Of a stretch of 61,670 nucleotides of DNA, positions 26,882-28,733 are shown piece after piece. Every line of letters begins with the position of its first letter. Within the stretch, counting starts at the first letter, position 1. The notes beneath the pieces are model-generated. The model was not told the origin of the DNA. It ran no database searches and saw only the letters and a program-made list of their open reading frames with translations. The DNA is from Microcaldota archaeon (GTDB lineage Archaea; Micrarchaeota; Micrarchaeia; Micrarchaeales; Micrarchaeaceae): contig JAKACK010000003.1 of the NCBI GenBank assembly GCA_021821445.1, forward strand, positions 4,725 through 66,394. Direction: 5' to 3'. Made by a program: the position numbers and the translations under genes.

Positions 26882-26896
26882 CTATCTTTTGTTAAT

Positions 26897-26969
26897 GCGA
26901 TTGTAGTCTAGCCTGGTAGGACATCGCCTTGCCAAGGCGGTAACTCGGGTTCAAATCCCGGCAGTCGCA
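26897..26969 (+). tRNA. tRNA-Gly (anticodon GCC)
   Basis: A 73-nt cloverleaf without intron. The acceptor stem is GCGATTG/CAGTCGC (one G-T pair) with discriminator A. The anticodon arm is TCGCC-TTGCCAA-GGCGG with anticodon GCC, and the T-arm is CTCGGG-TTCAAAT-CCCG. No CCA is encoded. Confidence 0.95.
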
Positions 26970-27044
26970 TATTATTTTAACACAATTTAAAAAATTATTA
27001 TTAAACAATTTTTGTAAACTAAAATTGGAACAATTAGATAGGTA

Positions 27045-27392
27045 TTATTTCTTATTGTACTGCTTAAGGTACTTTTTTACCAATTCAACTGCTTGCATCA
27101 CAGATTTCTTTACATCTGCTTCGGTATGTGCACCTGTACATATAACTTTTCCATTTTTGAATAATAAAAGAGCAGATTTTGGATCGTGTATCTTTAATAT
27201 AGCACCTGGAAATTGCTCAGGTTCATAATCGATATCATATGATAGTTTTGCTAATCCATAAAGATCTAATTCTGTATTTAGATCAGCACTAGCTACTATA
27301 TTAACTACTTTGTATGTTGGTACCAATTTTACATTTTTTTCATGAGGAAGATCTGGAAGTACCATATCGTTAGATTCGTTCTTTTTAACCAT
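27045..27392 (-). CDS. tbp: Single-repeat (half-length) TATA-binding protein
   Basis: This 115-residue protein matches one repeat of archaeal TBP almost completely. Residues ~26-110 contain VVNIVASADLNTELDL, DYEPEQFPGAILKIHDPKSA (Phe61, at a DNA-intercalating position), LLLFKNGKVICTGAHTEAD (Phe78) and the closing helix. Canonical archaeal TBP is ~180-190 residues with two such repeats. Here the frame ends with YNKK and a stop, and only 75 bp separate it from tRNA-Gly, so no second repeat fits downstream; none is seen upstream in any frame. The first 25 residues are polar. GGTGTATAA precedes ATG. It may act as a homodimer to rebuild the saddle. Confidence 0.9.
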   Translation of the reverse strand: MVKKNESNDMVLPDLPHEKNVKLVPTYKVVNIVASADLNTELDLYGLAKLSYDIDYEPEQFPGAILKIHDPKSALLLFKNGKVICTGAHTEADVKKSVMQAVELVKKYLKQYNKK

Positions 27393-27532
27393 TTATACAC
27401 CTATTTAAATATTACGTTTTAAAGGTATATAAATATTTAGTTTTTGCTAGAATAAAAAAGATTGCTTAAAAACATTAATTATAAATATACTTTCTTATCA
27501 AATTATATTATAAAAATAATAAAGGTAGTTAT

Positions 27533-27817
27533 ATGACAAAAAGATCAGGAGGACAATTTCATGGAAAAACAAGAAATCTTGTAAGGCATCATATGCCTTC
27601 ATCATTGAAGATTGCAGACAAAATAAAAAGTTTTGAAGTAGGAGATAAAGTTGCAATTATACCTAAAAGCACATATAGAGATGCTCCACATCCAAGATTT
27701 AAGGGAAGGATAGGAGAGGTAATAGAAAAAAGAGGATCTGCTTACGTGGTAAAAGTAAGAATTATGAACGCAACAAGAAAATTAATCGTTCCTGTAATTC
27801 ATCTTGAAAAAGTTTGA
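27533..27817 (+). CDS. rpl21e: 50S ribosomal protein eL21
   Basis: A 94-residue eL21 (L21e). The N-terminus MTKRSGGQFHGKTRNLVRHH, the segment FEVGDKVAIIPKSTYRDAPHPRFKGRIG and the ending VPVIHLEKV are diagnostic. In most archaea this gene is followed by rpo4 and DUF655 on the same strand; here those genes face it, and the 3' ends overlap by 19 bp. GGTAGTTAT precedes ATG. Confidence 0.96.
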   Translation: MTKRSGGQFHGKTRNLVRHHMPSSLKIADKIKSFEVGDKVAIIPKSTYRDAPHPRFKGRIGEVIEKRGSAYVVKVRIMNATRKLIVPVIHLEKV

Positions 27818-28380
27818 TTTCTTTTTATAAATGGTTTTACAAAAAGGTAAAACCTTTGGTTTCCATTCATTTCTTCTATTATTCTATCAACTATTAATTT
27901 TGCAGGATCTTGAAGAAGTTCTACTCTATCACTTATATCTTTAAAACTCTCAAATTTCTTTTCTGTTCTAGCTTTTATTATCGCTTGAAGGTGCTTCTTA
28001 CCTATACCTGGTAATAGTTCAAGAGAATGCTGCCTTATATTAAGGGATTTTGCATTATTGAAAAAATCAACGTACTTTTGTTCATTATCCTCTATTATTT
28101 TTGATAGCACATTGCGTAAATTACCTTTAGAAGTTTGAGTCAAATCCTCATATGATATTCTAGATTTTATTAAACTGATTTTATCTCTTTCTCCCTTACC
28201 TATGTATACCTTCTCACCAATATCAAATTTCATATTTGGTTTAGGAATAGCTTCTAGAAGTGTAAATTGTTCACTACCTAATAGTTGCAATAAAGGTTCA
28301 GGTTTTGCAGAAAAAGACTTACCAGTAGGCATGAAATCAATGACAAATGCATAATCTTCTCTTTTATCCATATTTTCCAT
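27799..28380 (-). CDS. DUF655 family protein (helix-hairpin-helix, OB-like)
   Basis: A 193-residue member of the archaeal DUF655 family. The N-terminal part (DYAFVIDFMPTGKS) is beta-rich with GEKVYIGKGERDKI. The C-terminal half carries the helix-hairpin-helix LELLPGIGKKHLQAIIKAR, a nucleic-acid-binding motif. In archaea it sits next to rpo4 and eL21 and is suspected to act in RNA metabolism; its biochemical role is not established. Here it is the second gene after rpo4 (26-bp gap), and its 3' end overlaps eL21 on the other strand. Confidence 0.88.
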   Translation of the reverse strand: MENMDKREDYAFVIDFMPTGKSFSAKPEPLLQLLGSEQFTLLEAIPKPNMKFDIGEKVYIGKGERDKISLIKSRISYEDLTQTSKGNLRNVLSKIIEDNEQKYVDFFNNAKSLNIRQHSLELLPGIGKKHLQAIIKARTEKKFESFKDISDRVELLQDPAKLIVDRIIEEMNGNQRFYLFVKPFIKRNQTFSR

Positions 28381-28406
28381 AATCTACCTACCTTTAAAAT
28401 CATAAT

Positions 28407-28733
28407 TTATTCACTTTTAAATTCTGAAAGTATTTTATTAATCTTTTCATCGTCAATTTCAATTCCTTCTGTTGATGCTATATACTTTACGAGTTCCGCG
28501 TTTTTAGGGGTAACCTCTAATAATTTATTAATTATATTTTGACTTAATTCCATTGACTCTAAATTCTTTTTTATTTTTTTATATTTTTCTTCACTTAATT
28601 TAAATTTCTCTGCATATTCTAAGGTATTCTGCTGTTCATAACCGAATTCAGAATCCTTTTTTAATTTTGATAAAATATCGAATACATCGTTTATAGACGT
28701 GGATCCAATATCTTTAGCATTTTCTCCAATCAT
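28407..28733 (-). CDS. rpo4: RNA polymerase subunit Rpo4 (RpoF)
   Basis: A 108-residue subunit of the RNA polymerase stalk, partner of Rpo7 and homologue of eukaryotic Rpb4. The helical HRDC-like pattern is seen in NTLEYAEKFKLSEEKYKKI, LLEVTPKNAELVKYIAS and the ending EIDDEKINKILSEF. Similarity is moderate, but position next to DUF655 and eL21 is the conserved archaeal context. GTGATAAA precedes ATG. Confidence 0.85.
   Translation of the reverse strand: MIGENAKDIGSTSINDVFDILSKLKKDSEFGYEQQNTLEYAEKFKLSEEKYKKIKKNLESMELSQNIINKLLEVTPKNAELVKYIASTEGIEIDDEKINKILSEFKSE

Follow-up and report, generated by a model that had tools for sequence, protein, structure and literature searches.

How can a TATA-binding protein (TBP) that holds a single repeat form a saddle on DNA? 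The two-fold repeat of TBP is a classic example of a gene that was duplicated and fused, and in the solved structures the two lobes are joined by antiparallel pairing of the strands S1 and S1′. A homodimeric TBP is, to our knowledge, known only as a hypothesis. The question is raised by an open reading frame, running from ATG to stop on the minus strand and encoding 115 residues, in a stretch of 61,670 nucleotides from contig JAKACK010000003.1 of a Microcaldota archaeon (Micrarchaeaceae; assembly GCA_021821445.1), which is referred to here as the window. The frame lies where the original prediction, made from the sequence alone, had placed it, and the two statements that went with it, that the encoded protein (TBP-A) holds one complete, well-conserved repeat and that no second repeat lies nearby, are borne out: the lobe matches the TBP profile almost from end to end with its contact residues kept, and no adjacent or frameshifted second lobe was found near TBP-A in any of the six frames. 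We propose, with a probability of about 0.77, that TBP-A is a genuine general TBP of the Micrarchaeia whose lobes are unfused, and that two chains build the saddle, as a homodimer of A and possibly, in the family of the window, as a heterodimer of A with a second paralogue, B. The features of the locus are collected in Table 1.

Table 1. Features of the TBP-A locus, in window coordinates
Feature	Position	Strand	Basis
TBP paralogue A (TBP-A), single-lobe TATA-binding protein, 115 aa	27045..27392	-	ORF and translation; PF00352; AF2 model; PDB fold matches
Complete TBP lobe, residues 25-108, S1-H1-S2-S3-S4-S5-H2	27069..27320	-	custom lobe HMM match to 25-108; secondary structure of the model
YEPEQFPG stirrup, residues 56-63	27204..27227	-	8/8 residues invariant in 42 single-lobe TBPs
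Phe78, second DNA-kinking Phe, in LLLFKNGK	27159..27161	-	invariant 42/42; equivalent to L5.1 Phe in PMC7221094
Asn31 of strand S1	27300..27302	-	invariant 42/42
TATA-box-like site TTTATATA (as read on the - strand)	27426..27433	-	sequence; putative function
Ribosomal protein L21e, divergent neighbour	27533..27817	+	PF01157, E=3.5e-14
tRNA-Gly (GCC), convergent neighbour downstream of TBP-A	26896..26970	+	ARAGORN

The original prediction turned on whether the genome holds another TBP gene, taking a lone gene to imply a homodimeric saddle and a second gene to make TBP-A a possible regulator or heterodimer partner. A six-frame search of the whole assembly (839,642 bp, about 85% complete) returned exactly two TBP matches, TBP-A and a locus on contig 37 (G000:C37:66562-66804). 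The second gene thus exists, but its product, paralogue B (L002:1405-1770; 121 aa, 49% identical to A over the lobes), is likewise single-lobed; the choice as it had been framed does not fit, and the saddle may be homodimeric, heterodimeric or occur in both forms. Around TBP-A, the genes for DUF655, Rpo4/Rpb4, L21e, aRF1 and SerRS form a housekeeping neighbourhood, those for DUF655 and Rpo4/Rpb4 (27799-28733, minus strand) adjoining L21e. Beyond the tRNA-Gly gene lies a putative surface protein of 2719 aa with divergent InlB-like repeats (PF18998; 18605-26764, minus strand).

Residues 27–108 of TBP-A cover positions 2–85 of the 85 in Pfam PF00352 (88 bits, E=3.8e-25), and in phmmer the two lobes of the M. 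jannaschii TBP match it equally, at 62.0 and 62.2 bits. Its AF2 model is a complete lobe with a core pLDDT above 90, in which strands at residues 32–37, 54–56, 64–68, 73–77 and 82–88 are combined with helices at 44–50 and 91–114; in a PDB fold search the model superposes on solved TBP lobes with an rmsd of 0.8–0.9 Å over 78 residues. Along with the residues listed in Table 1, Val33 is invariant in the 42 single-lobe TBPs, a set that includes both A and B. Asn31 we take, from established TBP–TATA structures, to be the central minor-groove Asn. Within the stirrup, which is of the C-lobe type in both A and B, Glu57 and Glu59 of TBP-A are the TFB-contact glutamates and Phe61 is the first intercalating Phe; in canonical TBP the C-lobe glutamates C.L3.2 and C.L3.4 (human E284 and E286) bind TFB (PMC7221094). 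Between the window and its same-genus relative G002, dN is 0.14 for A and 0.16 for B with dS saturated, which indicates that purifying selection acts on both. TBP-A belongs to the TBP family in its sequence, its fold and its contact residues, but it does so without the feature of two lobes per chain, having one lobe in its 115 residues.

The single-lobe state recurs throughout the genus, family, order and class. The nearest named relative of TBP-A, from a Candidatus Micrarchaeota MAG (L053), is 84% identical over 115 aa, and the same-genus assemblies G001 and G002 are also single-lobed, G002, a single contig of 952,257 bp, with A and B only. We searched 60 genomes, 37 from the window's family (its own genome included) and 23 from the sister family. 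In the former, 30 of the 37 have exactly two single-lobe TBP genes, at different loci, while in the latter 15 have one such gene, seven give two matches and one gives none. In G039, a genome in one contig of 771,545 bp that is rated 93% complete, the sole TBP gene is single-lobe. Across a class-wide draw of 147 Micrarchaeia genomes, single-lobe TBPs are found in most of the families sampled (f1, f2, f4–f7, f9, f11, f13, f15–f18, f21 and f24) and two-lobe TBPs in families f3, f8, f10, f12, f14, f19, f22, f23 and f26. Ca. Fermentimicrarchaeum limneticum Sv326 carries three single-lobe TBPs and no two-lobe TBP on its complete chromosome; three copies are found in some genomes (G074, G136). Some MAGs labelled Diapherotrites or Iainarchaeota have one to three single-lobe genes, most of that phylum being two-lobed. 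An assembly or sequencing error as the cause of the missing lobe, which would have undone the original prediction, is ruled out by the independent assemblies across genera and by the one-contig genomes. The two-lobe TBP met in the window's family (G011:C43; L182, L340) is probably contamination from another archaeon: this canonical gene lies on an 8.4-kb contig with unrelated neighbour genes, whose tetranucleotide correlation is 0.76–0.77, against 0.92 between two native contigs.

For the single-lobe TBPs we infer dimerisation, TATA binding and bending, TFB docking and BRE-set polarity as follows. Each chain would supply one complete lobe, and the exposed S1 strands of two chains would pair to give a ten-stranded saddle. 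In the AF2 models, S1 spans 6 residues in the lone lobe against 12 in both lobes of a naturally fused micrarchaeal TBP, L194, in which S1 is paired with S1′, whose lobes are 76% identical and which is predicted as a normal saddle with a TM score of 0.8–0.9 to solved TBPs; the short S1 of the modelled lone lobe fits an open edge strand awaiting its partner. The dimer would then bind and bend a TATA box that precedes the start by about 27 bp. As the TFB-contact glutamates would be present on both stirrups, TFB could dock on either side of the saddle, and since a symmetric homodimer of this kind would offer no asymmetry of its own, the polarity must come from TFB–BRE contacts, so that the direction of transcription would be set by TFB reading the BRE and not by TBP. 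A lineage with one gene would make a homodimeric saddle, whereas paralogue B, conserved in the family of the window, would permit A/A, B/B or A/B saddles there.

Promoters and TFB are in line with such a role. TFB is encoded in 54 of the 60 relatives, both same-genus ones included, and in G039 it is full-length, with a zinc ribbon and two cyclin repeats, its best match being Pyrococcus TFB. It was not found in the about 85%-complete assembly of the window genome, probably because the assembly is incomplete, as the gene is present in both relatives of the same genus. Counting from tRNA ends and start codons rather than from mapped transcripts, we find in G039, at 56% GC, an AT island at −31 to −24 of 20 tRNA genes (78% AT, against 41% at −100 to −50), a level reached by none of 2000 rotations, while the sequences upstream of its mRNA genes give a 15-mer motif, gaaaataTTtAtAaA, with a log-likelihood of 89 against 48 for shuffled sequence. 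The motif resembles a BRE plus a TATA box. Together, the island and the motif argue that a standard TATA box is used where the sole TBP is one-lobed. In the AT-rich G002 the tRNA island is not significant. At the window locus, the TATA-like TTTATATA sits at −41 to −34 from the ATG of TBP-A. The original prediction of a single-lobe TBP acting as a dimer is thus well supported by lineage-wide conservation, intact contacts, a one-gene genome and TATA promoters, with homodimer and heterodimer both possible.

The presence of B in the window's family has to be weighed in this light. It could be that TBP has been split there and that the working saddle is an obligate A + B heterodimer, possibly with A of the N type and B of the C type. 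The retention of B with A in 30 of 37 family genomes and an A–B identity near the canonical N–C divergence (40–54%) would agree with this, as would a tree that joins A to the canonical N lobes and B to the canonical C lobes, which is not rejected (p-AU 0.126). The opposite pairing, however, fares just as well (p 0.125), the best tree groups A with B in one clade, the stirrup of both is of the C-lobe type, and the 15 of 23 sister-family genomes with one gene only imply that a single-lobe protein can serve alone; we regard an obligate pair as quite improbable. Haloarchaea use multiple TBPs for different promoter classes, and the two paralogues may similarly form alternative saddles, A/A for housekeeping and B/B for a second class of promoters. 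Such a division is rather unlikely in our estimate: B lies on a long branch, most of the sister family does without it, and in some genomes there are even three copies, but the contact residues of B are the same as those of A.

A further reading would make the single-lobe protein a regulator, or else a fragment in decay, with transcription driven by a two-lobe TBP which has escaped detection. The window assembly, being only about 85% complete, leaves some room for such a gene. Near-complete, one-contig relatives nevertheless lack a two-lobe TBP, the DNA- and TFB-contact residues are invariant, the genes evolve under purifying selection, and the sole two-lobe TBP of the family is on the contig with foreign tetranucleotide usage, so that we give this reading hardly any credence. 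A general TBP with unfused lobes thus remains our preferred interpretation.

How the unfused state arose is a separate matter, on which we compared 98 lobes over 85 columns in a lobe tree. All micrarchaeal and iainarchaeal lobes stand apart from the canonical N and C lobes (95/95), and A and B fall into one clade (96/83), B with a branch length of 0.63. Forcing all N lobes, canonical and DPANN, into one clade is rejected (p-AU 0.0008). With the constraint limited to DPANN, its N lobes set as a clade against its C lobes, p is 0.043; an old-duplication tree that puts only the Iainarchaeota lobes beside canonical N and C withstands the test (p 0.126). The single lobes can join either canonical N or canonical C without loss of likelihood, and between two simple routes from a canonical TBP, by losing its N lobe or by losing its C lobe, the evidence gives no preference. 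The two lobes of two-lobe TBPs in these lineages are 52–80% identical, compared with 40–54% in canonical TBPs. In several families the stirrup segment S2–S5 is 93–98% identical between lobes at the DNA level (as in L196, L194, L195 and L193), with flanks at about 45–65%, a pattern that points to gene conversion between lobes within one gene; clustering of N with C lobes alone is thus no proof of new fusions.

An RpoB′ tree of 61 genomes needs about five switches between one-lobe and two-lobe states, at least four of which are forced by well-supported branches. In G059 (L020, C39), from the otherwise single-lobe sister family, a TBP frame broken off by the contig end has a partial upstream lobe identical to the downstream lobe over 98 nt, and this sequence suggests a very recent in-frame fusion of two single lobes. 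In a simple model, lobes that are kept nearly identical would make a fused-dimer gene and a homodimer gene interchangeable. It is conceivable, though we hold it to be doubtful, that a one-lobe homodimeric TBP is ancestral in Micrarchaeota and Iainarchaeota, with two-lobe forms derived by several new fusions and a truly symmetric saddle to which TFB and BRE alone give a direction; if so, the internal duplication of TBP happened more than once. The original prediction had likened TBP-A to the presumed ancestor before that duplication. The likeness holds for the architecture, but as history it is no more than possible, given the homogenisation of lobes, the roughly five switches and a lobe tree that is blind to an N, C or pre-duplication origin.

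Compared with known systems, TBP-A shares its fold, an identity of 39–42% to a lobe and its DNA- and TFB-contact residues with canonical archaeal TBPs (Pyrococcus woesei 1ais, M. jannaschii 2z8u, S. acidocaldarius 1mp9), but these have two lobes per chain, whereas TBP-A has one and is without intramolecular N/C asymmetry. The two-lobe TBPs of other Micrarchaeia and Iainarchaeota (e.g. L193–L201, L111) carry the YEPEQFPGAI...LLLFKNGKxICTG signature of the single lobes in both of their lobes; they differ in being fused, and a normal saddle is predicted for them. The TBP-like domain of bacterial RNase HIII likewise consists of one lobe with the TBP fold and binds duplex nucleic acid, but it is part of an enzyme, has no TFB-contact residues (PMC7221094) and is a weak structural match to the TBP-A model (3asm, E=0.3). 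The hypothetical TBP prototype before duplication (PMC4910066, PMC4802759) is expected to have the same one-lobe dimer architecture, TBP-A being, in contrast, a living protein.

An unfused TBP is thus widespread in a whole class of living archaea and is the sole TBP in some of their genomes. Surveys of DPANN record TBP and TFB but say nothing of their architecture (PMC8407392, PMC8204110), and no published description of a single-lobe archaeal TBP was found in open-access text. The internal repeat of TBP has been used as a clock, with the N and C lobes of 34 species in two clean clades and the duplication treated as single (PMC4910066). Those two clades do not hold for the lobes analysed here, and the premise of a single duplication, which such repeat-distance dating requires, is broken. 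Whether a symmetric TBP dimer is sufficient for initiation, where promoter polarity comes from and how easily a duplicated fold is fused and un-fused are now testable questions, and a member of the class, Ca. Micrarchaeum harzensis, is already in co-culture (PMC8975820).

Several further observations were made in the course of these searches. In Iainarchaeota, weak and divergent single TBP-like domains (G176:C1:420110-420310 and similar frames of 88–132 aa; 24–32 bits, profile positions about 15–84) occur beside a normal two-lobe TBP. Among viral contigs, a scan brought up 12 TBP relatives that are more distant, at 32–49% identity. Finally, rpoB′ of the window genome (G000:C7:44457-45793, L337) is found as two separate open frames of 296 and 440 aa, whose coverage of the profile overlaps; in nearly all relatives it is one frame, and the state seen here is a frameshift, an insertion or a true split.
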